Assembly: GCA_029260165.1 (NCBI GenBank)
Contig: JAJDDT010000089.1
Location: 1-64,000 of the forward strand
Length of the DNA stretch: 64,000 nt
DNA from: Phycisphaerae bacterium
GTDB taxonomy: Bacteria; Planctomycetota; Phycisphaerae; UBA1845
Direction: 5' to 3'
Shown here: positions 15,248-60,827 of the stretch, piece by piece
Numbering within the stretch: position 1 is the first letter of the stretch
How the letters are laid out: each line of letters opens with the position of its first letter
Program-made: the position numbers and the translations under genes
Notes under the pieces: generated by a model
Told to the model about the DNA's origin: nothing
Seen by the model: only the letters and a program-made list of their open reading frames with translations
Databases searched by the model: none

Positions 15248-17008
15248 ATGTTGAGCACCAAAATGGCACGGGGAGACGTCGCGGTGATCGCCACGTCTCT
15301 CCTCCTGACCACCGTGGGTTGCAATTCCATTCTCAACGGGTGGTTGACCCCGACGGAACTCGGTTCGTTCACGCGTGAACGAACGAACGAGATTCGCGGG
15401 TCGCTGAGCATTCAGGACCCGGAACGCGGTATTCGCGCTGCCACCGAACCCACCCCTGCCGACCTTGTTCCGACGTACGAGGAGTACCGGCTCACCCCCG
15501 GGGATATTGTCAACGTTTTCATCTACGAGCTGCGCGGTCCCGGTGATGAATCGGGGCAGCAAGCCACGGTGGACAATCGCGGGATGATCAATCTGCCGGT
15601 CGTCGGCTGGATCGACGCGTGGGGATTCACCGCGCGCGAGCTTGAAGACGAAATCCGCGGGATTCTGGAGAAACGTGAGATTCTCTTCGAGGCGGAGGTG
15701 CTGGTGCAGTTTGCGTCCCGCCGTGGATTGACGTACACGATCTTTGGAAATGAAAATCTTGCAGTGAGACTGAACCGTGGTCCGGGCGTTTTTCCGATCC
15801 CGCGGGCCGATTTTCGAATTCTCGATGCTGTTTCGGTGAGCGGTGGTTTGTCGGAGCTGGTTCGGATGCTCTACGTTTTTCGCAACGTTGAGCGGGACAA
15901 GGCACAGGAATCAGCCATCCGCGAGCTGAAGGCTGCGCGGGAACGTGATTCGTCGCAGCCTGATGAATGGATTCCGCCGCTTGACGAGAAGGAGCCTGTG
16001 GTGCCCCCCCCACCTTTGCCCGGGACGTTTGAAAATGGTCTAACCGATTATCAAAAAACGAGTTACGACGTTTCAGGCTTCTCGTTCAGTGGGGCGGGAA
16101 CGATTCAGGTGGCTGACCAACCCGCGGAAGCGGAAAAAGACAGTGGTTCCGCAAAAGATGAAGTACCGACGGACGTTCAGGAGTTGATCGACCTGATGTT
16201 GCCGGATGGAAATCCGGAATCTCCGGGGACAAGGCAGACGCCTGAGGAAGAACAGTCGGCGGAGGTGCCGGCGGCGGATATTGTACCTGCGACGCAGCCG
16301 GTTGAGGTTGATCCTGCCGCGACGCCCGACGGAGCCCCGGCGAAGTGGATTTTCCTGAACGGGGAATGGGTCGAGGTCGAGGATGGCGGGGTTGATCGCG
16401 GTTTGACCCGGGAATCGACGCCGCCTGCGGTTGATCCACTGGCTGACGGACCTGCGTCGGCGATTGACTGGGATTTGTTGGCTGCGGACTCGATGGATGT
16501 TCGGGTGATACGCATTCCTGCGACGGCGTTGCGGCAGGGTGAATCCGGGTACAACATTGTGGTTCGTGCGGGCGATGTGATTCGTTTGTACAGCGGGGAC
16601 ATTGGTTTTTACTACATGACGGGTCATGTGCGTGGTCCGGGAATTTTCCGGTTCCAGGGTGGGACGCAGGTGACGCTGAAGAACGCGGTGGCTGCTTCCG
16701 GTGGGCTTGATGCGCTGGCGTGGCCTGATCGGGTGTCGGTTTATCGTCGGATCGGTGAGCGTGAGCAGCTTATTCAGGTGAATCTTGATCGAATTTATGC
16801 GGGCCTGGATCCTGACTTCTATTTGAAACGGGATGACATTGTGAATGTCGGGACGCACCCGTTTGCACCGTTCCTGATTCAGATTCGGAATTTCACGGTT
16901 CCGCAGGCGCGCGGAACGATTTCGTATTTCTACCAGTTCATTCGCACTGAAACCTTTTTCCGGAACGAGAATCTCGACGCTCCGAGCAATCCGGGATTGT
17001 TCCCGTAG
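15248..17008 (+). CDS. Wza-like polysaccharide export protein with long acidic insert
   Basis: A 586-residue outer-membrane polysaccharide export (OPX) family protein, first gene of the exopolysaccharide operon. ATG 15248 is chosen, with TTG 15236 and ATG 15263 as alternatives. An N-terminal lipobox is visible (LLLTTVGC-N). The export domain is at about residues 80-140 (RLTPGDIVNVFIYEL, VDNRGMINLPVVGWI). SLBB-type segments follow at about 145-220 and 455-505 (YYMTGHVRGPGIFRF). Between them, about residues 245-405, sits a Pro/Glu/Asp-rich low-complexity stretch not normal for Wza. The exosortase gene starts 10 bases after the stop. Confidence 0.88.
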   Translation: MLSTKMARGDVAVIATSLLLTTVGCNSILNGWLTPTELGSFTRERTNEIRGSLSIQDPERGIRAATEPTPADLVPTYEEYRLTPGDIVNVFIYELRGPGDESGQQATVDNRGMINLPVVGWIDAWGFTARELEDEIRGILEKREILFEAEVLVQFASRRGLTYTIFGNENLAVRLNRGPGVFPIPRADFRILDAVSVSGGLSELVRMLYVFRNVERDKAQESAIRELKAARERDSSQPDEWIPPLDEKEPVVPPPPLPGTFENGLTDYQKTSYDVSGFSFSGAGTIQVADQPAEAEKDSGSAKDEVPTDVQELIDLMLPDGNPESPGTRQTPEEEQSAEVPAADIVPATQPVEVDPAATPDGAPAKWIFLNGEWVEVEDGGVDRGLTRESTPPAVDPLADGPASAIDWDLLAADSMDVRVIRIPATALRQGESGYNIVVRAGDVIRLYSGDIGFYYMTGHVRGPGIFRFQGGTQVTLKNAVAASGGLDALAWPDRVSVYRRIGEREQLIQVNLDRIYAGLDPDFYLKRDDIVNVGTHPFAPFLIQIRNFTVPQARGTISYFYQFIRTETFFRNENLDAPSNPGLFP

Positions 17009-17018
17009 GCGTTTGACC

Positions 17019-18014
17019 ATGAGCAGTTCTGTGACGTCGTCAACGGGCGGTGGTTCGTCCGCTCAGAAGCAGAAGCTCGGAAGCACGCCGACGCTTGCGG
17101 ATGCTTTCGGTCGGGCGGGTTTCATTCAGACTGCGATTTTGGCGGCGTTGCTTTTCACTATTTTCTGGCCGTCGTTGGAGCAGGTGGCGTTTCGTCGGTG
17201 GATTGATGACAGCGACTGGTCGCACGGTTGGCTTGTGCCGTTGTTCAGCCTGTATTTTTTGAACACGCGTGCGGCTGACCTGTCGCGGGTGGAGCGAAAA
17301 ACGAACTATGTAGGGCTGGTGGTCGTTGTTCTGGCATTGCTGGCCTATTTTGTGACGTTCACCTATTTCCGCACATCCTATCCCCGTCCATTGCTGTTTC
17401 TGGTAGCGGGGGCGGGTTTGACGCTTTTTTGCGCGGGTTGGCAGGTGTTGAAGCTGGTTTGGTTTCCGATTGCTTTTCTGGTTCTCGCGGTTCCCTTACC
17501 CGACAGTTACTATGTGACTTTAACTCAGCCGCTGCAGCGGATTGGTGCCATCGTGGCTGCGACGCTGCTGGGGTTATTCCCGGACCTTTATACGGAGGTT
17601 TCGGGTGTTGTGATCGATTACAGTTACAAAACGGTCCGCAACTCGCTGAATGTGGAGCAGGCGTGTGCGGGGATGCGTTTAATGATGGCGTTTGTGACGC
17701 TGGGCGTTGCGATGGCGTACCTTGGTGACCGGCCATTCTGGCAGCGAGGGATCATGCTGGTGTGCTGTGTTCCGATTGCGGTTTTTTGTAATGTGATTCG
17801 CGTGACCCTGACGGGTATTTTGCACGTATTTAAGGATGAGCCTGTTGGGACGAGCCTGCACTTTGAAGCGCTTTCCGGTGGGACGCCTCACGCGTTGTTG
17901 GGGATTGCGATGTTGCCGATCGCCCTTGGTTTGTACGCGATGATCGGATGGGTGCTGGCGAATTTGTTCGTGGACGCATCCGATCCGGCAGACGGGAGCC
18001 TTGAAACATCATGA
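17019..18014 (+). CDS. Exosortase (EpsH-family transpeptidase)
   Basis: A 331-residue polytopic membrane protein of the exosortase/archaeosortase family, which cuts proteins at a C-terminal PEP-CTERM signal and attaches the new end to a surface carrier. The catalytic set is present: Cys216 in VEQACAGMRLMMAF, Arg261 in CNVIRVTLTGIL and His281 in TSLHFEALSGG. About eight hydrophobic segments are visible. There is no C-terminal EpsI domain, and no separate EpsI gene is nearby. The start is ATG 17019, or TTG 17013. The end overlaps the next start by four bases (ATGA). A likely substrate, a PEP-CTERM protein, is encoded at 33331-33981. Confidence 0.92.
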   Translation: MSSSVTSSTGGGSSAQKQKLGSTPTLADAFGRAGFIQTAILAALLFTIFWPSLEQVAFRRWIDDSDWSHGWLVPLFSLYFLNTRAADLSRVERKTNYVGLVVVVLALLAYFVTFTYFRTSYPRPLLFLVAGAGLTLFCAGWQVLKLVWFPIAFLVLAVPLPDSYYVTLTQPLQRIGAIVAATLLGLFPDLYTEVSGVVIDYSYKTVRNSLNVEQACAGMRLMMAFVTLGVAMAYLGDRPFWQRGIMLVCCVPIAVFCNVIRVTLTGILHVFKDEPVGTSLHFEALSGGTPHALLGIAMLPIALGLYAMIGWVLANLFVDASDPADGSLETS

Positions 18015-20251
18015 CGACGATACCAGCCACTGTTCGAGAACGGATAGACCTTCCCGCGCCGAGGTCGGCGTCGGCAGCGAAGACGACCGACTCGGGCATC
18101 ACGTTTCAGGATATTGTGACGGTGTTGAAGCGGCGGATGGTGCTGCTGATGACGCTGTTTTTCTTTTTCAGCGTGTTGTTTGTAGGGTTGTGGATCGTTG
18201 GGTACAGGTGGTTTCCGTTGTACGGTGCGGAGGCGTTCATCGAGTGTATTTCAAACAAGCCCAAGGCACCGGGTGCGTTGACGGACGAGGATTCGGGGCG
18301 ACTGGAGTATGAGCGGTTTATTCTGACGCAGGCGGAGTATGTGAAGTCGCCTGACGTGTTGCTCAAGGTATTGAGTTCGCCGGAAATCGAGGGGACGCAA
18401 TGGTTTCGGGACACTCCGCCGAGCAAGCGTGTGCTGGAGTTTATCGATTTGATTAACGCCTCGCCGCAGCGAAACACGCAGCTTCTGGTCGTTTCGTGCA
18501 AGACGCGTTCGGAGACTGATCCGCATAAGATTGTGAATCAGGTGGTTGAATCGTATCTGCAGAAGGTCAGGGCGTTTTCGACGGATCCGTACCGTGACGA
18601 GCGTGAGAGTCGTGAAAGAGAGCGCGAGGAGATTGAAACGCAGATCGTTGACAAGCAGAGACAACTGGCGGAGGTGCAGCGACGGTTGCCGCCGGGTGTG
18701 GCGTCTGGTGTCGGCAACAGTGTGGGGGCGGAGTACGAGCAGCAGAATGTTGTGGTGACGCAATATGAGTTGATGCTGCGCGAGCTGGAGGGCATGTACT
18801 CGCTGTACAACTCGCCGTCCGGTCCTGCATTGACACCTCAGGATACGCAGTTGGTAGAGCAGGATCCGGTGATTGCGACGCTGTCGAATCAGCTTTTTTC
18901 GATCAATCAGCAGGTTCAGGTGTACGATGCAACGCTTGGGCCGAAGAATCGAACGATCAGGAGGTTGCAGAAGACGCGTGAGGTTGTTGAGAAGCAGTTA
19001 AGCGAGGCGCGTCAGCGTCGGTTGGCGGAGATACTTGCGTACAAGCGGGAGCAGGTGAATTCGGCGATTGCCAATGTTCGTCATGCGTTGCTCCTTTCCC
19101 AGGAGGATCTGGCTGACAAGCGTGCGATGCTGGCGGATATGGATGCGGTCATGTCGGAGTATCAGTTGCTTGAGGAGGATCTGTTTTTGCTCAAGCAGCG
19201 TCGTGAGCTTCTGGTGACGTCGATTGAGGATCGCGACCGTGTTGTTCGCGAGCAGTCGGCTGTTCAGATCGAGGTTCGCCAGTTTGCGATCGCGCCGCTG
19301 GAGCGTTCGTTTCCGCAGATGTTCCTGCTTCCGGGGGCGGTTTTGTTGGCGGGGATTTTCTCGCTTGGGGTCGTGTTGTTGCTCGAGTTTGTGGATACGT
19401 CGTTGCGGACGCCTGCGGACATGGTGCGCCATCTGAATATTCCGCTGCTTGGGGTTGTGCCCGATGCGGATGATGAGGAAGTGGACATCAAGGATCTGGA
19501 ACTGGCGGTTCTTGAGGCACCGCAGTCGATGTTTGCGGAGTGTTTCCGGACGATGCGGACGAATCTTCAGTTTGCCGCTCCGGCGGAGCGTGAGCGCAGT
19601 TTGCTGGTCACAAGCCCACGTCCGGAGGATGGGAAGACGACGATTGCGGCGAATCTTGCGATCGCGATGGCGCAGAATGGCAAGAGGGTGTTGATTGTTG
19701 ATGCGAATTTCCGGCGTCCTGCTTATCACCGTATTTTCGGGGTGAGTCCGAAGCGCGGGTTGAGCAATGTCTTGATTGGTGACGCCCGGTTTGAGGATAT
19801 TGTTGTACAAACGCAAGTTAAGAATCTCGATGTTGTGGTGTCCGGACCGCTGCCACCGAACCCGGCGGAGATGCTGGGTAGTGAGCAGATGGGGGATTTT
19901 ATCGCGCATGTGTCGAATGTTTATGACCATGTGATTCTTGATACGTCGCCGGTGCTTGTGGCGAGTGATGCCTGTGCGCTGGCGACGCGGGTTGATGGTG
20001 TGATCCTGGTTTGTCGGGCGCGGTTGAATTCGCGTGGTGTCGGCGGTCGTGCGTGTTCGCTGTTAACGCGCGTTGGGGGTCATATATTTGGTGGTGTGTT
20101 GAATGCGGCTCAGATCAGTCGGGGCGGTTACTTCCGCGAGCAACTGCGTACGTTCTATGATTACAACGCGGATGATGATGAACAGCTTGTTCGTGCGGCG
20201 TTGCCCTCTGCGACGGGTTCGGCCGGCGGTGACGGATCGTCCGAGGCGTAA
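18011..20251 (+). CDS. Wzc-like chain-length protein with BY-kinase domain
   Basis: A 746-residue inner-membrane protein combining a polysaccharide co-polymerase with a bacterial tyrosine kinase. It controls chain length and export together with the Wza-like protein. The first membrane helix is at about residues 42-64. A long coiled-coil periplasmic part follows, with heptad-rich text around 195-420. The second helix is at about 440-460 (LPGAVLLAGIFSLGVVLLLE). The kinase part has Walker A near 533 (SPRPEDGKTT), Walker A' near 560 (VLIVDANFRRP) and Walker B near 640 (HVILDTSP). The C-terminal tyrosine cluster is short (GGYFREQLRTFYDYN). The start ATG overlaps the exosortase stop. Confidence 0.93.
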   Translation: MTTIPATVRERIDLPAPRSASAAKTTDSGITFQDIVTVLKRRMVLLMTLFFFFSVLFVGLWIVGYRWFPLYGAEAFIECISNKPKAPGALTDEDSGRLEYERFILTQAEYVKSPDVLLKVLSSPEIEGTQWFRDTPPSKRVLEFIDLINASPQRNTQLLVVSCKTRSETDPHKIVNQVVESYLQKVRAFSTDPYRDERESREREREEIETQIVDKQRQLAEVQRRLPPGVASGVGNSVGAEYEQQNVVVTQYELMLRELEGMYSLYNSPSGPALTPQDTQLVEQDPVIATLSNQLFSINQQVQVYDATLGPKNRTIRRLQKTREVVEKQLSEARQRRLAEILAYKREQVNSAIANVRHALLLSQEDLADKRAMLADMDAVMSEYQLLEEDLFLLKQRRELLVTSIEDRDRVVREQSAVQIEVRQFAIAPLERSFPQMFLLPGAVLLAGIFSLGVVLLLEFVDTSLRTPADMVRHLNIPLLGVVPDADDEEVDIKDLELAVLEAPQSMFAECFRTMRTNLQFAAPAERERSLLVTSPRPEDGKTTIAANLAIAMAQNGKRVLIVDANFRRPAYHRIFGVSPKRGLSNVLIGDARFEDIVVQTQVKNLDVVVSGPLPPNPAEMLGSEQMGDFIAHVSNVYDHVILDTSPVLVASDACALATRVDGVILVCRARLNSRGVGGRACSLLTRVGGHIFGGVLNAAQISRGGYFREQLRTFYDYNADDDEQLVRAALPSATGSAGGDGSSEA

Positions 20252-20254
20252 GAC

Positions 20255-21445
20255 GTGAGTGAGCCTGTGACTGATTCCTGTGAGGCGGATGGGTTGCAGT
20301 CGGCGGATGATCGCGCGGGTTTGTCGGTCGGTCGGAAGGCATTCTTTGCGTTCGTTCTCCTGGGATTGATTCTGGTTTCGGTTGAAGTGGCTGGCCGTGT
20401 TTATTACGCATCGCGCACGGACGGCGATCGGTATTTGCGGCAGGCGTATTATCAGGACCGCGACTGGTCGGAATCGTATTGGCAAGTGCATGAGCGGCTG
20501 CGTATGCGCTATGAACCCTATCTTGGCTGGCGGCGAATGGATGTTTCGTCGGAGAATATCAATATATTGAATGGTGTGCGGCGGTCGGTTGGGGCTGCGA
20601 CGTCGTCGGATGATGCGCTGCGGGTGTGGTGTTTTGGTGGATCGGCGATGTGGGGCACGGGGGTTCGGGATGGTTGGACGATTGCGTCGCAACTGGCGAA
20701 GTTGGCGGGTGAGGCGGGCTATGATGTGGCGGTCCGGAATTTTGGGGAATCGGGGTGGGTGTCGACTCAGGAAGTGATTCTGCTGGACCGGATGCTTCGT
20801 CGCGGGGAGGTGCCTGATGTTGTTGTGTTTTATGACGGGGTGAATGATACGTTTTCGGCGTTTCAGTCGGGTGTGGCTGACGGATCGCACCAGAATCTGG
20901 GTATGTTTGAGAACTATTTTGAACTTGGCTACGACCCGCGGCGTTCTATTGTTTCGCGGTTGGCGATTGTTCGGGGAATGGGGAGTATTGGTCGGCGGCT
21001 GGGGATCGACCGGCGTCCACCGACGGAGGATGAATCGTCTCGTGAGGCGTTGGCGGATGGGGTGGCGGAGGTTTATGGTGCCAATGTACGATGGGTTCGG
21101 AACCGTGCGGCGGAATATGGGTTTTCGTGTTTGTTTGCCTGGCAGCCTGTTGTGTCGTGGCAGAAGGATTATGTGGAAACCGAATCGGATGGTTATGGGC
21201 ACATGAGTGGTATGCAGATGGATGCGATGTTGTCTTTTTATGACAAGACGACGGCGAAGGTGGCTGGTGAGGATATTGTTTTGATGCGGGGTTGTCTTGG
21301 TGATTCGCCCGAGGACGGGTATTTCATCGATCATAACCATGTTGGTGAGGAGGCCAACGCGTTGCTGGCGGCGTGTCTGTTTGAGCACCTGGAGCGGATG
21401 CTTCGCGAGCGATCGGCGCGTGATGAGGGGATGGGCGGGGTATGA
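20255..21445 (+). CDS. Membrane-anchored SGNH/GDSL hydrolase
   Basis: A 396-residue SGNH-fold hydrolase, probably an esterase acting on acyl groups of the polysaccharide (inference from context). GTG 20255 starts four bases after the Wzc-like stop. A single membrane helix at about residues 30-50 (FFAFVLLGLILVSVEVAG) places the catalytic part outside. The nucleophile Ser130 lies in CFGGSAMWG, the oxyanion block is YDGVND near 192-197, and the Asp359/His362 pair lies in IDHNHVG. AlgX/AlgJ-like acetyl-transfer is an alternative. The end overlaps the next gene by ATGA. Confidence 0.8.
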   Translation: MSEPVTDSCEADGLQSADDRAGLSVGRKAFFAFVLLGLILVSVEVAGRVYYASRTDGDRYLRQAYYQDRDWSESYWQVHERLRMRYEPYLGWRRMDVSSENINILNGVRRSVGAATSSDDALRVWCFGGSAMWGTGVRDGWTIASQLAKLAGEAGYDVAVRNFGESGWVSTQEVILLDRMLRRGEVPDVVVFYDGVNDTFSAFQSGVADGSHQNLGMFENYFELGYDPRRSIVSRLAIVRGMGSIGRRLGIDRRPPTEDESSREALADGVAEVYGANVRWVRNRAAEYGFSCLFAWQPVVSWQKDYVETESDGYGHMSGMQMDAMLSFYDKTTAKVAGEDIVLMRGCLGDSPEDGYFIDHNHVGEEANALLAACLFEHLERMLRERSARDEGMGGV

Positions 21446-22656
21446 TGGCCTTGTTGGTGGTCGGGGCTTTGTTGTTGTATCTGCCGGTCCGGGTGATGAG
21501 GGGATTTCCTGCGTCGGTCAGGGTGACGGCGTGGGTGCTGGTGGCAGTGAAGGCGGTGATCCTGGTCGGGTTTCATCTGCATCAGATAGGTGAGAATAAT
21601 CACCCGATCGTACTGGACGAATCGACGGACGCGAAGGGGTATTATGATGTCGGGTCGGCTGTCATGGGGATTCCGTTGTGGCAATTGACGGTGGACGATG
21701 TTATTGACGTTCGTGGGGGCACGGGCAATCTCGCGTATTATATGCTGAACGTGTACGCGTTTCAGGTGAGTCCCGATCATCCGATTTTGCTTATTCGGCT
21801 GTTCAAGCTGTTGTTCTTTTCGGTGGCGACGGGGATGTTGGCTTCGGTATGGTTGCGTCGGACCGGTTCTGTCGGGAGGTCGTTTTTCGGTTATATTGTT
21901 CTTAGCGTCTTCTTTTATCAATTTTTGTATTTCACGTTTCGCAATCTCAAGGATGACCTCATTCTGTCGCTCTTTATTTTGATAATGGCGATCGTGGATG
22001 GGTATCTTGTCAATCCCGATTTGCCGGCGGAGGCGAAGACGCGTGGCAAAACGATTCTGCGATGGGGAGCAGTGGCGGTTCTTGTTTATGTGATGTCATC
22101 CATGCGGTTTTACGCGGGGTTGGCGGTCGTTTGCGGATTGGCTGCGCATACGGTTATTGGTCCTGGCATGAAGGCGTCGACGCGGGTTGTCACGAGTGTC
22201 CTGTTTTTGGGGGGATTTGTGGCGTTGATGGGGACGGCTGGTGGGGCGTTGGTGGCAAGTGAAGGTGGGTTGGGCGCTATTTTCAAAGCGGCGGCCAACA
22301 TTGGGGGCGTGTTTAAGATTATCGTAACGCCGGTTCCCTGGAAACATCAGATTCCCTGGCAGATTCCGGCGCATCTGGTGTATCTCCTGTTGTTGTTGCC
22401 GGCTGCGATGGTCGCGTTTATTGCGCGCATACGTCAGAATCTGGATTGGAAACTCGTGGTGGTTTGTTTGATTGCGTTGGCTGTCGGCGGTCACATTCTT
22501 AACTTTTCGCCGCGCAAGCGATTCATGATGTACCCCGTATTTATGAGTTGGGTCGTCATGATGGGCCGACGCAGGTTGGTCGAGGCTGGGGAATCAGACG
22601 AAGCTAAACCGTTCGACGTGGATGCCTATTTTGCCCGGCATGGCGCTGTGACCTGA
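21442..22656 (+). CDS. Polytopic membrane protein, candidate polysaccharide polymerase
   Basis: A 404-residue protein with about ten hydrophobic helices, in the operon position where a Wzy-type polymerase is expected. ATG 21442 overlaps the previous stop. A large non-membrane loop at about residues 50-110 contains DESTDAKGYYDVGSAVMG, an acidic motif of the kind seen in the first outer loop of GT-C enzymes. FRNLKDDLILSLF follows a membrane segment. I recognise no defined family. Polymerase function is inferred from position, because no other polymerase candidate except the DUF2723 protein is present in the operon. Confidence 0.6.
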   Translation: MMALLVVGALLLYLPVRVMRGFPASVRVTAWVLVAVKAVILVGFHLHQIGENNHPIVLDESTDAKGYYDVGSAVMGIPLWQLTVDDVIDVRGGTGNLAYYMLNVYAFQVSPDHPILLIRLFKLLFFSVATGMLASVWLRRTGSVGRSFFGYIVLSVFFYQFLYFTFRNLKDDLILSLFILIMAIVDGYLVNPDLPAEAKTRGKTILRWGAVAVLVYVMSSMRFYAGLAVVCGLAAHTVIGPGMKASTRVVTSVLFLGGFVALMGTAGGALVASEGGLGAIFKAAANIGGVFKIIVTPVPWKHQIPWQIPAHLVYLLLLLPAAMVAFIARIRQNLDWKLVVVCLIALAVGGHILNFSPRKRFMMYPVFMSWVVMMGRRRLVEAGESDEAKPFDVDAYFARHGAVT

Positions 22657-22708
22657 TAACTGATTCTGCCTGTTTTGATTCATGGACCGGAGCGAGCGTC
22701 GTTGAGCG

Positions 22709-24280
22709 ATGAATGATGGAACGACAGGCAGGGAGGCGAGAGATTCCGGATCATCGGGCGGCGTGACGGCTGTCGGAGCGGACGCCGGGGCGGTGACGCG
22801 TGCTGCTCATCGTGGTGCTTTCTGGTCGCTGGTGATAGCAGGGATTGCGTTTCCACTTCCGATCCTTCGGAATTGGTTTGCGGGGCAGATTGATGCGACC
22901 GGGTCGCTGAATGGCCAGGTTTATCTGTTCATTTTGTTTGTGACGGCGGTCTACACGTTTTGCTATCCGGGTGGGCGAAACGTGTTTCCGACGTACCTGC
23001 CGAAATTGCGTGACGTGCGCGAGCGATCGCAACTTATTAGTGGTTATCTTGTTCTCATTTTGATTTCCGCCCTGGTGGCGATTGTTCTGACGTCGATCTT
23101 CCCGGGTATTTTCGATGCGATGCTGACGAGCGGCGGTGCGGAAATCGCGCGCGGGCCGATTTCCTCGCAGACGCGACATCTGTTGCAGGTGCTGATTCCG
23201 CTGGTGTTGTTGTCGCTGTTGTGCACGTCAGCGGTGATGGGGAGTATGTCGTTTGTCTGGGCGGCGGTGTTGTTGCGGGCGGAATTGCTGTTTGTGACGG
23301 GTTTTCTTGGCCTGGTTTATTTCGGTTGGATTGATCTGGCTGACGGAATTGCGATTCGCTGGTTGGCGATCGCTTTTGGGGCTGCGTTTGTGGTCTCGGT
23401 TGTTGTGGCTGGTTCGATTCTGCTGGGCAGCCATCGTCTCACATGGCGCATTCGGTTTCCGAAGGGGTGTTTTCGGTTCGCCGGTCTGACGTGGCTGGAC
23501 ACGGTGATGGTGTTTGCCTATCTGTCGATTGACAAATATTTCGTTGTGGCAGCGTTGGGTGATGCGACGCTCGGTGTCTACGGTGTACTTCTCGATTTGG
23601 CGCGATTGATTCCGCTGGCGATGCAGCAGGTGGGTCATCTCCTGCTCGCGACGTTCTCGAAACTGTTGGGCAGCAATCAGGAGGAATCACTGGCCCACGC
23701 ATACCGTCGCGTGTCGCGGGTCAACGTCGGGTTTTACGCGTCGGCGGCGTTGGTATTTGTTTTCTTTTCGCGACCGCTTGCGTCGTTTTTCGGCGATGCG
23801 TTTGAGTCGCGCCACGCGGTCCTGATCGGGTTGGCGGTTGCGCTGAGCATCGACGCACTCAAGACGCTGAACGCCATGACGCTGATGGCGTTTGAGCGAA
23901 TGGGGACGGTCCTGTTGAGCAAGGTTGCACAAAACGTCGTGCAGTTTGCGGTGATCTGGCTGACGATCGAGCGGTGGGGATTGGCGGGTGTTGTGCTGGG
24001 AAAGGCTGCGGGACATGTGGTCAACGCGGTTATTTCCTGTGTTGCGGTTGCACGGGTTCAGACGCGTTTTCCACTGTTGCCGCCGAAAGCACTGGTGGTC
24101 TTGCCGCTAATCGTCGGGGGGGCTGGCGTGGGTGCGTATTTTGCGGATGGTCGGTCGTGGCTGGTGTCGGTGGTGGGGGTTGTTTCGGGTTGGACGGCGG
24201 TCTGGTTCGCGGGTGGATATTCCGTGGCTGAGGTTCGGTCATTGTTGCCGTTTGGTCGTGGCAGGAGTGTACAGGAGTGA
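22709..24280 (+). CDS. Oligosaccharide flippase (Wzx/MOP superfamily)
   Basis: A 523-residue membrane protein with about 14 hydrophobic segments, expected to flip lipid-linked repeat units across the inner membrane. The N-terminal 30 residues are hydrophilic. The core begins RAAHRGAFWSLVIAGIAFPL, similar to the opening helix of Polysacc_synt/MurJ-like flippases. Family-like features include LDTVMVFAYLSIDKYFVVAA and GVYGVLLDLARLIPLAMQQV. The gap to the preceding gene is 52 bases, the largest in the operon. It overlaps the next gene by GTGA. Confidence 0.85.
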   Translation: MNDGTTGREARDSGSSGGVTAVGADAGAVTRAAHRGAFWSLVIAGIAFPLPILRNWFAGQIDATGSLNGQVYLFILFVTAVYTFCYPGGRNVFPTYLPKLRDVRERSQLISGYLVLILISALVAIVLTSIFPGIFDAMLTSGGAEIARGPISSQTRHLLQVLIPLVLLSLLCTSAVMGSMSFVWAAVLLRAELLFVTGFLGLVYFGWIDLADGIAIRWLAIAFGAAFVVSVVVAGSILLGSHRLTWRIRFPKGCFRFAGLTWLDTVMVFAYLSIDKYFVVAALGDATLGVYGVLLDLARLIPLAMQQVGHLLLATFSKLLGSNQEESLAHAYRRVSRVNVGFYASAALVFVFFSRPLASFFGDAFESRHAVLIGLAVALSIDALKTLNAMTLMAFERMGTVLLSKVAQNVVQFAVIWLTIERWGLAGVVLGKAAGHVVNAVISCVAVARVQTRFPLLPPKALVVLPLIVGGAGVGAYFADGRSWLVSVVGVVSGWTAVWFAGGYSVAEVRSLLPFGRGRSVQE

Positions 24281-25488
24281 GCAAGGTCCTGCACTGTATT
24301 GCGTCGCTTCGTGCGGGTGGCGTTGAGAGACGCGTGATGAACGCCGTGTTGCGGCTCGCTGAAACGGGTAGTCGTCATCAACATTCGGTTTGTGCGTTTC
24401 AGGATGGTGCTCTTCGGGAAGTTTACGAAGACAAGCTTCGGAATCCGGGTGTTGATCTGTATGTGCACGAGCGTGCGTCTCGTTATAGTCTGGCGTTTTA
24501 CAAGGCGCTGCGAAGGACGGCGAACGTTGTCGAACCGGACATCATTCATGCCTACAATGAGACGGCGGGGCTGTGGACGCGGATGTTGTTGGGGGGTGAT
24601 CGACGGTGGAAGATCATCATTCATTGCGGGGGGGGCGGGGCGTTGCGATGGCGGTTGAAGATTCTGGAGAGGTTGTTGAAGTCGCGGGCGGATCAATTTG
24701 TTTTCAACTCGCAGGCAACAAGCCATGTTTGGCGTGATGATATAAACATTCGCGATCGATATCGTGTTATTTACAACGGCGTTGATATTGACAATATGGA
24801 CGATGGTCCGTTGCCGATGGTATCGCCGTCGCCCTTTCGATTACTAACGGTATGTCGCGTCGTGGCCATCAAGAATTTATCCGCGCAGATTCGCGCGGTG
24901 AGACTGCTCCATGATCGCGGTCAGAACGATGTGCAATTGACGATCGTGGGAGATGGTCCCGGGTTGGATGGGTTGAGGCGATTTGCTGCGGAATCGGGCG
25001 TTGCGGATTTCGTGACGTTCGCGGGTTATCAGGCTGATACGCGACAATACCATGCCGGATCGCATGTTTATATTTGCTCGTCTTACAATGAAACGTTTGG
25101 CTTGGCGCTGGCGGAGGCGATGTTGGGTCGGATGGTGTGCGTTGCGCCGAGCGTTGGTGGTCCGTCCGAGATTATTCGCCACAGGGAGAATGGATTTCTG
25201 GTCGGGTGCAGTGAGCCGTTGCCGGCCTCTCTCAAGGGGGCGTTGCCGCATGGTCAGACCATCCCGGGGCGCGTGTATGATTTCCAAACCGATGGGTTGC
25301 GGCCTCCGTTGGGGATCCATGTTGAGGCGTTGGCGGATCAGATCGAAGCGATCCGAACGGATTACGAAAACATGGCGACGTTACGAAAAGCGGCGAGGCA
25401 GCGTATCGTCGAGGATTTCAGTCTTGATGCGTATTGTGCCGGTCTTGAGAATCTGTACGACGAGTTAAGTCAGGATTCGTCGCGTTAA
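24277..25488 (+). CDS. GT4-type glycosyltransferase 1
   Basis: A 403-residue GT-B fold glycosyltransferase that probably adds a sugar to the lipid-linked repeat unit on the cytoplasmic side. The start is GTG 24277, overlapping the flippase stop. The N-terminal part has the glycine-rich acceptor motif SLRAGGVERRVMN. The C-terminal half has RLLTVCRVVAIKNL, VGDGPGLDGL and the donor-binding E-x7-E region CSSYNETFGLALAEAM with VGGPSEIIRH. Donor and acceptor sugars cannot be told from the sequence. Confidence 0.9.
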   Translation: MSKVLHCIASLRAGGVERRVMNAVLRLAETGSRHQHSVCAFQDGALREVYEDKLRNPGVDLYVHERASRYSLAFYKALRRTANVVEPDIIHAYNETAGLWTRMLLGGDRRWKIIIHCGGGGALRWRLKILERLLKSRADQFVFNSQATSHVWRDDINIRDRYRVIYNGVDIDNMDDGPLPMVSPSPFRLLTVCRVVAIKNLSAQIRAVRLLHDRGQNDVQLTIVGDGPGLDGLRRFAAESGVADFVTFAGYQADTRQYHAGSHVYICSSYNETFGLALAEAMLGRMVCVAPSVGGPSEIIRHRENGFLVGCSEPLPASLKGALPHGQTIPGRVYDFQTDGLRPPLGIHVEALADQIEAIRTDYENMATLRKAARQRIVEDFSLDAYCAGLENLYDELSQDSSR

Positions 25489-25500
25489 CTGGTGTTGTGA

Positions 25501-26730
25501 ATGGCAACAATGGATGCGATCAGTATGGGTGAATGCAAGGCGATCGATGAGGGAGCAACCACCCGTCGGGCGAATCGGTCGATGAAGATTCTGCACCTCC
25601 TCGGTGTGCCGAGCATCGGTGGGACGGAGACGCATTGCATCGCGGTTGTTCGTGGTTTGATCGAACGGGGGCACGATGCGGTCCTGGCGAACACCTGGGA
25701 CGATGGCTTGGTGAACGATTACGCAGTGCGGGAGGGAATTCCGTTTTTTGGGATCCGCGGTGGGACATATGCGGTCGGGCCTAAGTGGTTTTGGCGGGTT
25801 GGGCGATTTCTTCGCAGGCATCGGTTCGACATTGTGCAGTCGCATGGGCTGCGGGTGAGTCTGGCGTTGCGGATGATGCAGAATGTGGTTGGCGTGAAGC
25901 ATCATATCAAGTGTATTCGTGGTCTCGAACGACAACGAAGAAGAATCGAGATGTATTTCGATCGGGTGACGGAGCGAAGGTTGTCGGTGATTTTGTGTAA
26001 CTCGCAGGCGGTGGCGGATCGCCGACATCAGATGGCGGGGACGCGTCGTGAACGGATGTTGTTGATTCCGAACGGCATCGATGTAGACGAATTCGGTCCC
26101 GATTTTCCGATGTCATCGCGCGAGGAGTTGGGTTTGCCGCCGGGGTTTTTATTCGTCAAGGTGGGGAGTTTTCGTGAGGAAAAAGACCATGGCACGCTGC
26201 TTGATGCGTTCGGCAGGTCGCGTGATCTTTTGCAGGATGCAAAAATCGTTCTGGTGGGTGGTGGAAAGCTGGAGTCGGAGATTCGGGCGAAGACAGAGCA
26301 GCTTGGATTGGCTGACCGCGTGGTATTTTGTGGTATTTCCGCGGACGTTCGGCCTATCCTGAAATCGTGCGATGCGTTTGTGATGAGTTCGCACAGCGAG
26401 GGGATGCCTCGTGCGATGATGGAGGCGATGTCGATGGGGATGGCTGTTGTGGCGACGGCTGCGGGTGGTGTGCCGGAGGTGGCAGAGGATGAGAGGAGTG
26501 CGTTGATCGTGCCAACGCGTGATGCGGCGCGGTTGGCGGACCGAATGGTTCGCGTGTACAAGGACGCGTCGCTTCGGGAACGATTGGGAGGGGCTGCAGC
26601 AGCGCGGATTCGTGGGCATTTCAGCCTGGAGCTGATGCTGGATCGTTACGAAGAGATTTATCGCGGCGTGCTCGCCGGTCAGATTGGTCCGTCGTTATCG
26701 CATGCGAAACCGGAGATTGAATCGAACTGA
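25501..26730 (+). CDS. GT4-type glycosyltransferase 2
   Basis: A 409-residue GT-B glycosyltransferase. The true start may be ATG 25582 (MKILHLLGVPSIGGTETHCI), because the first 27 residues are unlike the family and no ribosome-binding site precedes 25501. The glycine-rich loop is SIGGTETH. The C-terminal half has KVGSFREEKDHGTLLDAF, LVGGGKLESEI and SSHSEGMPRAMMEAMSMGMA, then AAGGVPEVAE. Its stop overlaps the start of the next gene (TGATG). It acts with the two neighbouring transferases on the same repeat unit (inference). Confidence 0.9.
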   Translation: MATMDAISMGECKAIDEGATTRRANRSMKILHLLGVPSIGGTETHCIAVVRGLIERGHDAVLANTWDDGLVNDYAVREGIPFFGIRGGTYAVGPKWFWRVGRFLRRHRFDIVQSHGLRVSLALRMMQNVVGVKHHIKCIRGLERQRRRIEMYFDRVTERRLSVILCNSQAVADRRHQMAGTRRERMLLIPNGIDVDEFGPDFPMSSREELGLPPGFLFVKVGSFREEKDHGTLLDAFGRSRDLLQDAKIVLVGGGKLESEIRAKTEQLGLADRVVFCGISADVRPILKSCDAFVMSSHSEGMPRAMMEAMSMGMAVVATAAGGVPEVAEDERSALIVPTRDAARLADRMVRVYKDASLRERLGGAAAARIRGHFSLELMLDRYEEIYRGVLAGQIGPSLSHAKPEIESN

Positions 26731-27959
26731 TGTCTGATCGCCCGAAAATATTGACGCTCTGCGCGGTGGATTCGACGCTCGTGGTGTTGATGTGGGCGCA
26801 GCTTCGGGCGATGCGTGTGGCTGGTTACGAGGTGTTGACGGGCAGCACGCCTGGTCCGAATCGTCAATGGCTTGAAGAGCAGGGTATTCGTTACCATACG
26901 TTTGATATTCGTCGTGCTATTTCACCATGGGCGGACCTGCGGACGTTGTGGCGTCTCGTCCGGTTCATGAGGCGTGAGCGAATTGCCATCGTGCACACGC
27001 ATACGGCCAAGGCGGCATTGCTGGGGCAGTTGGCGGGGAAATTGACGGGGGTTCCCGTTGTCGTGAACACACTCCACGGTTTTCATTTTGACGAGGACAT
27101 GCACTGGTTGCAAAAGGCGTTTTATATTGTGATGGCCACCGTGGGTAGTCGGTGTGCGACCATGACGCTCAGTCAGAACCGGGACGATATCGAGGCAGCC
27201 ATCAGGCTGAAAATTTGTTCAAGGAAGCGCATTCGGTATCTGGGTAATGGGATTGACCTGACGCGGTTTGATCCGAATCGATTCAACGAGGATTTCAGGA
27301 AGAAAAGACGTGTCGAGCTTGGTCTGCCCCTCGATAAGAAACTCGTGTTGATGGCTGCTCGACTGGTGGAGGACAAGGGGTTTTTGGAGATGTTTGAAGC
27401 GGTTCGGCGACTGGGTGAATCGCGCGATGATTTTCGGTATGTTTTCATTGGTGTGCATGAACCTGCGCGGGGTGGGGCTATCCCGATCGACGAGTACAAG
27501 CGGTACGGTATTGAATCGCGTACGATCACGATGGCGCCGTGTGGCGAGATGGAGGCATTGATGGCGTGCGTGGATGTTATGGTGTTGCCGAGTCGTCGGC
27601 GCGAGGGTGTGCCTCGTTCGCTGATTGAGGCGGCTGCGTCGTCGCTTCCGATTGTGACGACGAAAACACGCGGGTGTCGCGACGTGGTCGAGGACGGCGT
27701 GAACGGGTTTCTTGTTCCACCGAAGAATTCGGAGAAACTGGGAGAGGCGATCGGGAAACTGCTGGACGATGACGAGCTTCGTGTTCGTATGGGTAAGGCA
27801 GGGCGCGAACGTGCGATCGAACGGTTCGATGAAAAAGTCGTTTGTCAGCGGGCGATTGGGTTGTACGAGGAGTTGCTGACTACGAGGAAACGGGTTGTGC
27901 CATCGCCGATCGCTGAGCTTGACGACCATTTGCCGAAAGAGGCTCCGTGCGTGTGGTGA
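26730..27959 (+). CDS. GT4-type glycosyltransferase 3
   Basis: A 409-residue GT-B glycosyltransferase of the same broad family as the two upstream genes. The N-terminal half has HTHTAKAALLGQLAG and NTLHGFHF, typical of GT4 enzymes related to WcaA/CapM. The C-terminal half has AARLVEDKGFLEMFEAV, LPSRRREGVPRSLIEAA and TRGCRDVVEDGVNGFLV. ATG 26730 overlaps the previous stop. The end overlaps the next gene by GTGA if GTG 27956 is the start there. Confidence 0.9.
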   Translation: MSDRPKILTLCAVDSTLVVLMWAQLRAMRVAGYEVLTGSTPGPNRQWLEEQGIRYHTFDIRRAISPWADLRTLWRLVRFMRRERIAIVHTHTAKAALLGQLAGKLTGVPVVVNTLHGFHFDEDMHWLQKAFYIVMATVGSRCATMTLSQNRDDIEAAIRLKICSRKRIRYLGNGIDLTRFDPNRFNEDFRKKRRVELGLPLDKKLVLMAARLVEDKGFLEMFEAVRRLGESRDDFRYVFIGVHEPARGGAIPIDEYKRYGIESRTITMAPCGEMEALMACVDVMVLPSRRREGVPRSLIEAAASSLPIVTTKTRGCRDVVEDGVNGFLVPPKNSEKLGEAIGKLLDDDELRVRMGKAGRERAIERFDEKVVCQRAIGLYEELLTTRKRVVPSPIAELDDHLPKEAPCVW

Positions 27960-29551
27960 GTCAGATTGATGGGACATCCGCCGCCCTGGCTGTGGGCGAT
28001 TCGTTGGATATGCAACCGGACAAACCTTGTCCTGTTCGCTGCTGGTTGGTTGCCTTTGTGCTCGCGGGGGCGTTGTACTGTGCGACGGTTGTTCCGGGTG
28101 TTGCATTTGGTGATTCCGGAGACGCACAGCTCCGCGTGGAACTGGGCTGGTGGAGTGACGTAAAGGAACTGTCGCGGTCGCACCCGCTCTACTATTTTCT
28201 TGCGATTGGGCTGAAGAGTCTGGGAATCAGGGCGGCGACGGCTGCTAATTATGTGAGCGTCGTGGCTGGTGCGTTGACGGTCGCCAATCTGGCTGCATTG
28301 CTCGCGTTGATGCGGTTGTCTCGCACCGCTATCGTGTGTGCTGCGCTCGTTTTGGGAATGTCACATGCGATGTGGCACATTTCGACCCTAGCAGAGGTCA
28401 TGTCGCTTTCCACGGCGTTGCTGACTTTTGAGCTGATTTGTATCCATCGTTGGACGGCGACGGAGAATCCCCGCTGGCTGGTGCTGGCTGCGATGGTCAA
28501 TGGTCTCGGGCTTTCGACCCACAACATGGCCGTCCTGAGCTGGCCTGCGTACGTTGTCACGTTTTGGCTGGTGCGAAAAAGGCACCATATGCTAAATCTC
28601 CGCGTTTTTGTGGCGTGTTTATTCGCAGGATTGCTCGCGTCATCGCCACTGCTTGTTATTTTCGTCGAATCGATGCAGCGAGGGGCTGGTGTATTCACGG
28701 TTCTGCACGAGATGGCCTCCGGGCGTTATTCGACGCATGTGTTCCAACTTTTCCCGGGCGTCACGCAAACTCTGCGGATGGGCGCGTACACGGCGTACAG
28801 TTTTCCGTCGCCGCTCATACTGCTCGTTCCCTCAGGCCTGTTGGTTGCGCACCGTCTATTGAAAAAGCCTTTGTTTGTGTTCGCTGTGTCTGCCCTTGCA
28901 ATTCATTTTTTGTTTGCTATTCGTTACAACGTAGCCGATCAACATGTGTTTCTCCTGCATTCATATGTCCTTGGGATGGTCTTTTTTGCATTTGGTGTAG
29001 ACAGATGGGTACACCGAGACAAAAAGCAACGCCGTGTATTCGTGGCTGTTCTATTGAGTTGCCTTGCGCCCGTCGTGTTCATGGTTGTGCCGAACACGCT
29101 TCGGGCGTATTTCCCCGATGTTCCGGTCATTCCCACTCGTGAGTTGAAATATCGCGAGCCGTACGACTCGTTTCTCAAGCCCTGGCGACAGGGGCAGGAC
29201 GGAGCCGATCGATTCGCCCGCGAGGTATTGGGCGCAATGCCGAAGGACGGGATTCTTGTTCTGGATACGACCGTCAAACCCCCGATTCTATATATTCAAC
29301 AGGCTGAGGGCATTCGACGCGATGTGCGAATATACAATGCCGATCCTTATCAACGGTTTTTTGAAGAGCGGGTCGACCTGTCGAAAGCGAACATACAGCG
29401 TTGGATTTCAGAAAGGCGACTGTGTACCGTGACCAATGACCTTCGATATCTGAGCGTGAGAATTTCGGGTGAACGGTTTGCATACGTCCCCGAAGGGCCT
29501 GTCTATTTCGTCGTTGATGCCGTTCGTCCGGGAAAATCCAAGAATGAGTGA
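27956..29551 (+). CDS. DUF2723-type GT-C membrane protein
   Basis: A membrane protein of about 531 residues with some ten hydrophobic segments, in the DUF2723/TMEM260-like group related to dolichyl-phosphate mannosyltransferases. GTG 27956 gives a GTGA overlap like its neighbours; GTG 27947 in the same frame is an alternative. The first outer loop carries the family motif GVAFGDSGDAQLRVELGWWS with RSHPLYYFL, where the acidic residues should serve catalysis. The last 150 residues are soluble and outside. A likely role is transfer of a sugar from a lipid carrier to protein or polysaccharide (family knowledge plus inference). Confidence 0.8.
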   Translation: MSQIDGTSAALAVGDSLDMQPDKPCPVRCWLVAFVLAGALYCATVVPGVAFGDSGDAQLRVELGWWSDVKELSRSHPLYYFLAIGLKSLGIRAATAANYVSVVAGALTVANLAALLALMRLSRTAIVCAALVLGMSHAMWHISTLAEVMSLSTALLTFELICIHRWTATENPRWLVLAAMVNGLGLSTHNMAVLSWPAYVVTFWLVRKRHHMLNLRVFVACLFAGLLASSPLLVIFVESMQRGAGVFTVLHEMASGRYSTHVFQLFPGVTQTLRMGAYTAYSFPSPLILLVPSGLLVAHRLLKKPLFVFAVSALAIHFLFAIRYNVADQHVFLLHSYVLGMVFFAFGVDRWVHRDKKQRRVFVAVLLSCLAPVVFMVVPNTLRAYFPDVPVIPTRELKYREPYDSFLKPWRQGQDGADRFAREVLGAMPKDGILVLDTTVKPPILYIQQAEGIRRDVRIYNADPYQRFFEERVDLSKANIQRWISERRLCTVTNDLRYLSVRISGERFAYVPEGPVYFVVDAVRPGKSKNE

Positions 29552-30206
29552 TACGAACATTGGAATGATTTTTGATCTCGATGGTGTGTTGATCGATTCG
29601 TCCGAGCCACACCGTCTCAGTTGGATGCGGCTGGCGGACGAAATCGGCACATCCATCACGGACGAACAGTTTCGCCAAACGTTTGGTCGGCAGAATCGCG
29701 ACGTCATTGCGATTCTGTTCGGCCAGGTATTTTCCCCTTCCGAAATGGCGTCACTTGGTGAGCGAAAGGAAAGGTACTATCGGGACATTGTTGGTGACGA
29801 TCTGGTGATTCTTCCGGGCGCTGTTGAACTGGTTCGTGCCTGTGCGGACATCGGAATCCCATGCGCCATCGGGTCGTCGGGCCATCCCCTCAATATTCAA
29901 CTCGCCATTGACAGGATGGGCGTCGCTGATTGCATCCAAAAAGTCGTCACCGGCCATGACGTCACTGTTGGCAAACCGAATCCGGAGGTGTTCCTGCTCG
30001 CAGCCAGGGGTTTGGAACGTGAGCCGGGTCGTTGTATCGTTGTTGAAGATGCGCCAGCAGGCGTTCAAGCTGCGATCGCAGGCGGGATGAAGGTCGTGGC
30101 AGTCACCACCGAGCACGCCCGTGAAAAACTCGCCGACGCCGATTGGATCGTCAATTCCCTCAAGGAAATCACTGTGGACAGGTTACGGCCCCTTGCCGAC
30201 GCGTGA
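29544..30206 (+). CDS. HAD-superfamily phosphatase/phosphoglucomutase-like protein
   Basis: A 220-residue cytoplasmic HAD hydrolase. Its start ATG at 29544 lies inside the end of the DUF2723 gene, so the two are translationally coupled. The motifs are complete: FDLDGVLIDSSEPH (nucleophile Asp), IGSSGHP (motif II Ser), VGKPNPEVF (Lys) and VVEDAPAGVQAA (acidic pair). The helical cap fits beta-phosphoglucomutase or sugar-phosphate phosphatases. As the last gene of the operon it may supply or recycle sugar phosphates for the polysaccharide. Confidence 0.9.
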   Translation: MSDTNIGMIFDLDGVLIDSSEPHRLSWMRLADEIGTSITDEQFRQTFGRQNRDVIAILFGQVFSPSEMASLGERKERYYRDIVGDDLVILPGAVELVRACADIGIPCAIGSSGHPLNIQLAIDRMGVADCIQKVVTGHDVTVGKPNPEVFLLAARGLEREPGRCIVVEDAPAGVQAAIAGGMKVVAVTTEHAREKLADADWIVNSLKEITVDRLRPLADA

Positions 30207-33189: not shown

Positions 33190-33330
33190 GATTTCCTCAA
33201 AAGGATCGCTGCAGACGGGATTCTCAAACCCTCTCGAACGTCCAACCCCAACCCGATGTGTGTCTGGAACGCCAAACCCGGCGACGCGCCAAGCGTCACC
33301 TGCCTTCCCCCGAAGCCCGTTCAATCGTAA

Positions 33331-33981
33331 TTATGCCTGTTTCCGACGATGTCGAAGCAGGCTGATGATACCGCATCCCGCCAGAAGAATGGTCGCCGGT
33401 TCCGGAACAACAGTGACGGTCGTCGCAACGGTGTCAAACCCGATCGGCTCAAAACCCTCGCCCGCAAGTGCGGTCGGCGAGATCAACTCGATTCGGAACT
33501 GTCCTGTGGCATCTCCGGAAACGTTAAACCATGCTTCCGCCAACGCATCGCTCAAACCCGACGCAGCCGCCGGAACGGTCATCAAGCTCTGTGTCACCGC
33601 ATTGAAGAAAATACCCCCGTCAGCGGCAGGTCCGACGAAACTGAACGTCGGATGAAGTGACGCACTGACCTCGCTCTGGCCAATCAGATTCCGCGCCATT
33701 GCGAAATTTGACGCCTCGATATCGCGTGTGATCGTGCCCGTTGACCCCTCCAAGGGCACAACGCGGACAGCCACCGAGTAACCAACGAGCGCCTCGGTCG
33801 AGTCACTCAAAAGTATCAGCGCCGACAACGGACCCCCGGCATCAACCTCACCACCTTCAGGTCCGACGACCGAAATCGTCTCGCCGATAGAAGCCAGCGG
33901 CATCATACCGAGTACTATTACCATCCATGGCCACACACGACGAACGACAGGCCGTCGAGTGGCATTGCTTTCGCAGGCCAT
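33331..33981 (-). CDS. PEP-CTERM protein, likely exosortase substrate
   Basis: A 216-residue exported protein. The start at 33981 is supported by an AAGGGAG/GGGAGG stretch, and a signal peptide spans about residues 15-38 (VWPWMVIVLGMMPLAS). The body is beta-rich and resembles the cohesin-like domains common in short PEP-CTERM proteins. The last 26 residues are a textbook signal: VPEPAT, then LLAGCGIISLL, then RHRRKQA. The exosortase at 17019-18014 is the obvious processing enzyme. It lies 141 bases upstream of the TSP3 gene on the same strand. A different tail type on that neighbour suggests two anchoring routes. Confidence 0.92.
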   Translation of the reverse strand: MACESNATRRPVVRRVWPWMVIVLGMMPLASIGETISVVGPEGGEVDAGGPLSALILLSDSTEALVGYSVAVRVVPLEGSTGTITRDIEASNFAMARNLIGQSEVSASLHPTFSFVGPAADGGIFFNAVTQSLMTVPAAASGLSDALAEAWFNVSGDATGQFRIELISPTALAGEGFEPIGFDTVATTVTVVPEPATILLAGCGIISLLRHRRKQA

Positions 33982-34257
33982 CCTCCCTCTCCCTTGTCTT
34001 TTGTACCAGGCGCAGACGTACATCGACCGTCCAGATACCTGGTCACGCATTAGTTGTTCCGTCGCTCGGTGAAGAAGTTGGCATGAAAACGACCCGTCAG
34101 CCGTCTGAACTGCAACTTTCTCTCTCTTCCCGAGTTTCCTCCAAAACTCTCACAGGACTGTAATCGGGCTGGACAGCGAAGTCAATCAAACTCCCCGAAA
34201 CCTCATCAAGGGAGTTATCGGACTTTTTGTCGCATTCGCCGCAGCTCGTTCGACGGC

Positions 34258-59741: not shown

Positions 59742-60827
59742 ATGAAACACATGACAGCAGGATGTATTGCCTTGTGTTGCGGTCTGTTCGTTGGGATCGG
59801 CTCTGTAACCGCCGCTCCCTGCCCATGCAACGGCAACGTCAACAACGACACGATCGTCAACGTACTCGACGCCCTTTGTATTATCGAATGTCAGAATGGC
59901 GACTGCAGTTGCTGCATCAACTCCTGCGACATCAACTGCGACGGCGTGGTCGACCAACTCGACGTCAACGCCGACGACCCCGTCAACATCGACAACACAT
60001 GGCTATGCCTGTTCGCAGGCGGATCAGCCGAAACCTGCTGCCCGGTGATCGTGACCGGTGCCTGTTGCAACACGACCACCGGCACCTGCGCCGGCGCCGT
60101 GCAGGAAGCGGAGTGCACCGCAACAAATGAGATTTGGACCGAAGCCACCGACTGCGCCAACGTCACCTGCCAGGCACCGACCACCGGTGCCTGCTGCGAT
60201 ACGTCCACGGGCGGCTGCGACAACGGTGTGCTCCAGTCTGCCTGCACCGGCGCGAGCCTGACCTGGACCGAGGGAGCAAATTGCGCGGGCGTGTTCTGCC
60301 CGACGCCGCCCATCGGTGCCTGCTGCAATCTCGGCAACGGCCTGTGTGAAGACGAGGTTTTCCAGCCGGTATGCTCGGGACCCGATTTCGTCTGGACCCC
60401 TGGAACCGCCTGCACCGCGATATCCTGCTCGGTCCCCCCACAAACCCCTTGTACCTGCAACGGCAACGTCAACAACGACACGACGGTCAACGTGGTCGAC
60501 GCCGTTTGCATCTTTGAATGCCAAAACGGCGACTGCAGCTGCTGCATCAACTCCTGCGACATCAATTGCGACGGCGTGGTCGATCAACTCGACGCCAACG
60601 CCGATGACCCCGTCAATATCGACAGCACATGGCTTTGCGAATTCGTAGGCGGTTCACCCGAAAGCTGCTGCTCCGCTGAATTCCAGACTCAACTGGGACA
60701 AACCCCGGCGATACCCGCAACCACCGACTGGACAATGTTGGGATTCTTCACTGGAATGGCAGCCTTCACGGCATTCATCGTACGAAGCCGAAAACCTTCG
60801 ATGACCTTCGAATCCGCCGGCGACTAA
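59742..60827 (+). CDS. GACC-repeat protein with duplicated Cys-rich dockerin block and C-terminal anchor
   Basis: A 361-residue exported protein. ATG 59742 follows GAGGAG at seven bases, and the signal peptide ends near VTA-APC. A Cys-rich dockerin-like block of 72 residues (NGNVNNDTIVNVLDALC; INCDGVVDQLDVNADD) occurs twice, at about residues 29-100 and 239-310, nearly identical. Between them are three GACC modules, for example GACCDTSTGGCDNGVLQSAC. The tail has IPATTDW, a hydrophobic helix (MLGFFTGMAAFTAFIV) and RSRK, which resembles IPTL-type C-terminal sorting signals, followed by 10 more residues. The function is unknown. Confidence 0.8.
   Translation: MKHMTAGCIALCCGLFVGIGSVTAAPCPCNGNVNNDTIVNVLDALCIIECQNGDCSCCINSCDINCDGVVDQLDVNADDPVNIDNTWLCLFAGGSAETCCPVIVTGACCNTTTGTCAGAVQEAECTATNEIWTEATDCANVTCQAPTTGACCDTSTGGCDNGVLQSACTGASLTWTEGANCAGVFCPTPPIGACCNLGNGLCEDEVFQPVCSGPDFVWTPGTACTAISCSVPPQTPCTCNGNVNNDTTVNVVDAVCIFECQNGDCSCCINSCDINCDGVVDQLDANADDPVNIDSTWLCEFVGGSPESCCSAEFQTQLGQTPAIPATTDWTMLGFFTGMAAFTAFIVRSRKPSMTFESAGD
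59826..60671. repeat. Internal duplication of a 216-bp dockerin-coding block
   Basis: Bases 59826-60041 and 60456-60671, offset by 630, are nearly identical, for instance both begin TGCAACGGCAACGTCAACAA. The frame is kept. Confidence 0.8.

Follow-up and report, generated by a model that had tools for sequence, protein, structure and literature searches.

An exopolysaccharide-linked exosortase locus in a Phycisphaerae genome with a probably relocated EpsI–TPR gene pair

The window analysed here, a stretch of 64,000 nucleotides (G000:C107:1-64000) from a 4.43 Mb Phycisphaerae genome (designated as G000), carries at 15248-30206 eleven consecutive plus-strand genes, one of which codes for an exosortase (Table 1). 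Open reading frames, codon-score gene calls and family matches agree that this eleven-gene operon is real and that the exosortase gene lies between Wza-like and Wzc-like genes, as an earlier note on this DNA had described. Neither EpsI nor a tetratricopeptide repeat (TPR) protein was matched inside the operon in Pfam and NCBIfam searches, and the note had proposed a distinct version of the system without EpsI and PrsT. Two results speak against that proposal: the genome contains an orthologous EpsI–TPR pair, and EpsI lies beside the exosortase gene in nearly all other Phycisphaerae sampled. We consider it very probable that the operon is an exopolysaccharide (EPS)-linked PEP-CTERM/exosortase locus whose accessory EpsI–TPR pair has been relocated, and not a new EpsI-free system.

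Two EpsI genes in the G000 genome exceed the PF11984 cut-off, one on contig C5 and the other on contig C78. C5 EpsI passes PF11984 (34.6, cut-off 26.1) and does not reach the cut-off of TIGR02914 (20.7, cut-off 42.8); it retains the invariant H121, P123 and C126, and its orthologues adjoin exosortase genes in 109 genomes. The note had itself named an EpsI elsewhere, paired with this exosortase, as evidence that would count against its proposal, and C5 EpsI, being orthologous to exosortase-linked EpsI, is such a gene. Located 42 bp 3' of it is a TPR gene of 1497 amino acids, whose best NCBIfam match is PrsT (TIGR02917; 254.6 bits, under the cut-off of 312.2) and which is hence termed PrsT-like only. 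The reported absence of EpsI and PrsT thus holds for the operon, which has neither, but not for the genome, where C5 EpsI is followed by the PrsT-like gene. As for PrsK (TIGR02916; 92, cut-off 300) and PrsR (TIGR02915; 412, cut-off 503), the models gave only generic matches under the cut-offs, so that the absence of both, also stated in the note, is consistent with the data. The top PrsR score in the genome belongs to a tandem of a histidine kinase and a sigma-54 response regulator (G000:C6:20342-22429, plus strand), which is possibly a distant PrsK/PrsR counterpart.

A related exosortase is present in 287 of the 298 Phycisphaerae genomes searched, indicating that the gene is class-wide and not peculiar to the window locus. 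In families f2, f5 and f6 of the window's order, as well as in other orders, the genes are arranged as Wza-exosortase-EpsI-giant TPR-Wzc, with TPR proteins of 1468-1601 amino acids. At loci L070-L075 and L127, the exosortase, EpsI, giant TPR and Wzc genes follow one another, and Wza is found upstream wherever the contig extends that far; it is unseen at the f6 locus because the contig ends within the exosortase gene. Combined exosortase and EpsI genome searches placed the two genes next to each other, with gaps of 33-606 bp, in 109 of the 110 sampled genomes outside f3 and the window's own family (f1): 15/15 in f2, 14/15 in f5, where the exception is at a contig edge, and 80/80 in other families. 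Many EpsI matches in families f17, f21 and f23 contain one in-frame stop codon, which is perhaps the natural gene end within the match. Outside Phycisphaerae, weak EpsI matches were found in 2 of about 110 sampled planctomycete genomes, both beside exosortase genes.

In f1 and f3, the exosortase and EpsI genes are unlinked (27/27 f1 genomes with an EpsI match and 5/5 f3 genomes). All 17 f1/f3 exosortase loci read have the order Wza-exosortase-Wzc, with Wzc directly after the exosortase gene and no EpsI or TPR match, while the relocated EpsI–TPR pair is still side by side in nearly all loci. An N-terminal MAK(K/R)xN-type signature is common to the linked and relocated TPR proteins. In genome G216, the exosortase and EpsI genes are on one contig with about 100 kb between them; together with the exosortase-Wzc contiguity in the 17 loci, this rules out the split as an assembly artefact. 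No common new site for the pair was found across f1, and the RibH-NusB-FtsY genes (named by eye) upstream of the C5 pair occur there in the window's genome only. A dockerin-like protein is encoded directly downstream of the relocated pair (L020:15970-17499, plus strand), and several f1 genomes have related segments close to their own pair.

The genes following Wzc are less constant. Among the 12 f1 loci read, gene 5, the flippase gene and the glycosyltransferase (GT) genes lie beside the exosortase gene in G071, G148 and G196 only, and the SGNH and TMEM260-like genes in G071 and G148 only, so that both of the latter are accessory; in the remaining f1 genomes this position is taken by DegT-, epimerase-, UDP-glucose dehydrogenase- or MetH-like genes (named by eye from sequence). 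The SGNH/GT/TMEM260 cassette, whose SGNH and DUF2723 genes the note had described as built in, is a trait of a few close genera, not of the exosortase locus. Such variation, with glycan genes carried by only 3 of the 12 loci, would suit an exosortase that is a passenger in a plain capsule or EPS operon with no functional tie to the glycan. We regard a passenger as improbable, because Wza, exosortase and Wzc stay together at every f1/f3 locus read and the wider core is class-wide, and because genetics in other organisms links exosortase/PEP-CTERM systems to EPS: in Aquincola, prsT and a PEP-CTERM protein take part in floc formation (PMC9850573), and in Nostoc, an exosortase is required for adherence to polysaccharide and biofilm (PMC12188702).

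EpsI orthologous to the linked proteins is retained in 27 of the 28 f1 genomes, the one without a match being an 87% complete assembly, and in all five f3 genomes. Of the 11 genomes that gave no match in the exosortase search, ten also lack EpsI, several of these ten being incomplete, and the eleventh has EpsI with an exosortase fragment adjoining. Both observations argue against an EpsI-independent variant, in which the window exosortase would have no EpsI or TPR partner and the C5 pair would serve something else. Exosortase systems in which no EpsI or Prs proteins are recognised have been reported before, including those of the planctomycete Rhodopirellula baltica and of Nostoc (PMC1569441), and the operon itself lacks both genes, but we judge such a variant very improbable here.

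The window exosortase might instead borrow C78 EpsI, which scores higher on PF11984 (60.5 bits), with C5 EpsI as a decaying leftover; however, this is hardly credible, as the C78 EpsI gene shares 4 bases with the exosortase gene of its own locus, its very long branch falls apart from the clade that holds the EpsI proteins linked to this exosortase, and C5 EpsI keeps its invariant residues and an open frame beside the TPR gene. In this second exosortase–EpsI pair (L018:15038-16704, minus strand, contig C78), EpsI lies upstream of the exosortase gene; no EPS genes were recognised around the pair, and a 188-amino acid protein of unknown family adjoins it.

In the EpsI tree, f1 (92) and f3 (99) join in one clade (SH-aLRT 83). 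The tree agrees with the taxonomic families and requires one change from linked to relocated. Horizontal gain of C5 EpsI is unsupported by this tree. The exosortase tree is congruent with it apart from a truncated, long-branch f6 sequence. The simplest account of these phylogenies and gene orders would be a single relocation of the EpsI–TPR pair in the ancestor of f1 and f3. Several points weigh against the relocation reading: the support for the f1+f3 clade is modest; the exosortase tree requires two changes, because of the truncated f6 sequence; most of the compared genomes are draft assemblies; and, since the TPR protein scores under the PrsT cut-off and the PrsT model also matches in 13 of 14 control genomes, the case for its orthology is built on gene order and the N-terminal signature. 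In addition, the second exosortase–EpsI pair on C78 means that substrates are not assignable to one enzyme.

The window exosortase matches PF09721 (163.3 bits, cut-off 25.7) and the general exosortase model TIGR02602 (115.2, cut-off 105.55). C216, R220, R261 and H291 are invariant across 15 aligned exosortase sequences; the EpsH family has absolutely conserved Cys, Arg and His residues, and a transpeptidase-like role has been proposed for it (Haft et al. 2006, PMC1569441). The comparison with TIGRFAM subfamily models that the note had suggested yielded no named subtype, as no curated cut-off was passed (XrtA 117.8, cut-off 208; XrtW 134.7, cut-off 425; others lower). The same genome has four small exosortase-like genes (L021:9048-10269, plus; L022:8718-10011, plus; L024:7600-9044, minus; G000:C116:14223-14684, minus). 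Three were tested and are XrtH-like (64-77 bits, cut-off 86). For three of the four, an overlapping gene for a membrane protein without a family comes next, and a PEP-CTERM gene lies directly downstream of the pair on contig C24.

A genome search found 27 PEP-CTERM places in G000, of which 22 are over the cut-off, as expected of a genome with a PEP-CTERM system, which carries several such proteins. The coupling of a surface glycan to exosortase sorting, suggested in the note, is backed by these matches and by the gene content, from which cleavage of the PEP-CTERM proteins by the window exosortase is predicted. In the account that we favour, the ancestral core Wza-exosortase-EpsI-giant TPR (PrsT-like)-Wzc would have split in the common ancestor of f1 and f3, the EpsI–TPR pair leaving as one unit and the exosortase gene remaining between Wza and Wzc, with the Wzx/GT cassette and its SGNH and TMEM260-like genes placed downstream in a few genera. 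The most likely mechanism is modelled on Haft et al. 2006 (PMC1569441): the GT4 enzymes would make a lipid-linked glycan, which would be flipped, polymerised under Wzc control and exported via Wza. The exosortase, presumably aided in trans by C5 EpsI and the TPR protein, would cut the PEP-CTERM tails, and the processed proteins would join the exported matrix.

That exosortases occur within EPS loci is already known. In the system of Haft et al. (PMC1569441), too, the exosortase gene is embedded in genes for EPS export and GTs, and the genome encodes numerous PEP-CTERM proteins, EpsI and a PrsT-like TPR protein; here, in contrast, the EpsI–TPR pair is far from the exosortase gene, PrsK/PrsR are not recognised, and neither the TPR protein nor the exosortase passes the XrtA-system equivalog models. 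The eps cluster of Methylobacillus sp. 12S is also a large EPS cluster with an exosortase, and its EpsH-EpsI order (PMC1569441) recurs in most other Phycisphaerae, where EpsI directly follows the exosortase gene. In the window's genome, EpsI has instead been relocated. The position of the exosortase gene between Wza and Wzc presumably also differs from that in strain 12S. With the Wzx/Wzy-dependent exopolysaccharide pathway the operon shares Wza, a Wzc-type BY-kinase, a MATE/Wzx-like protein and GT4 enzymes; it differs in that no model identifies a polymerase and in the added exosortase, TMEM260-like and SGNH proteins. As far as the literature searched shows, both the core gene order in Phycisphaerae and the EpsI–TPR relocation are new; the locus is a known system in rearranged form.

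These results define a core gene order that is conserved in Phycisphaerae, Wza-exosortase-EpsI-giant TPR-Wzc, and recast what looked like a loss of EpsI as a relocation that can be traced. The fact that EpsI and the TPR gene stayed together after parting from the exosortase gene suggests that the two work as a unit, and their separation is a natural experiment that helps design tests of EpsI, a protein without known function in Haft et al. 2006 (PMC1569441). A literature search on DUF3485 found no paper. The structure model of C5 EpsI is confident (pLDDT 90.6). Sequence searches gave no credible solved-structure relatives of the exosortase or EpsI, and Foldseek with the EpsI model gave no match at E <= 0.001. 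In a second structural comparison, the top neighbour was DcrB (Z 7.2, rmsd 4.0, 114 aligned), followed by SciW (Z 6.7), EagT6 (Z 6.1), then PsbP and Mog1; comparisons that yield no clear match typically peak at Z 7-8, and values below 8 are not decisive. We take DcrB, SciW/EagT6, PsbP and Mog1 to be one fold group. The solved structures of the chaperones SciW and EagT6 include transmembrane or N-terminal segments of effectors. It is conceivable, though unlikely, that EpsI is a membrane-anchored periplasmic chaperone with a DcrB/Eag/PsbP-like fold whose binding partner is the PEP-CTERM helix or the exosortase, acting with the giant TPR protein, and in trans in f1/f3.

Table 1. Operon genes and the neighbouring PEP-CTERM gene in the window
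Feature	Coordinates	Strand	Basis
Wza-like outer-membrane polysaccharide export protein (Poly_export + SLBB)	15248..17008	+	PF02563 51.4 bits, SLBB_2 38.3 bits, both over cut-off
Exosortase, EpsH type with eight transmembrane segments, conserved Cys/Arg/His	17019..18014	+	PF09721, TIGR02602, invariant residues
Wzc-like chain-length / BY-kinase	18011..20251	+	TIGR01007 173 bits, cut-off 108
SGNH/GDSL hydrolase, one N-terminal hydrophobic segment	20255..21445	+	PF13472 33.1 bits, cut-off 32.9
Gene 5: polytopic membrane protein, putative polymerase	21442..22656	+	~10 hydrophobic segments
MATE/Wzx-like flippase candidate	22709..24280	+	PF01554 23.1 bits, just under cut-off 24.9; ~13 hydrophobic segments
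GT4 glycosyltransferase	24277..25488	+	PF00534/PF13439
GT4 glycosyltransferase	25501..26730	+	PF00534/PF13439
GT4 glycosyltransferase	26730..27959	+	PF00534/PF13579
TMEM260-like GT-C membrane protein (DUF2723 of the earlier note)	27947..29551	+	PF11028 33.6 bits, cut-off 24.2
HAD-family sugar phosphatase / beta-phosphoglucomutase-like	29544..30206	+	PF13419 94 bits; TIGR02009 139 bits, under cut-off 153
PEP-CTERM protein, candidate exosortase substrate	33331..34050	-	PF07589 over cut-off, match 33343-33408; tail VPEPATILLAGCGIISLLRHRRKQA

Chance or artefact was ruled out as the origin of the operon, since every gene except gene 5 matches families and G071, of the same genus, has the identical order. 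Only three of the ten junctions overlap by exactly 4 bases, not most of them as first stated; the others are overlaps of 1, 13 and 8 bases and gaps of 10, 3, 52 and 12 bases. Gene 5 had no match among Pfam and NCBIfam models, its structure model is poor (pLDDT 52), and its orthologues were seen in G071, G148 and G196 only, among the loci read. Adjoining the PEP-CTERM gene, 30613-33324 (minus strand) encodes a large secreted protein with TSP3 repeats, whose C-terminal tail (Cys-Gly, a hydrophobic stretch, then RRRR) is similar to sorting signals of the MYXO-CTERM type. Further along, 59850-60640 (plus strand) encodes Cys-rich dockerin-like repeats, and a segment of about 140 bases returns about 600 bases on with high identity.

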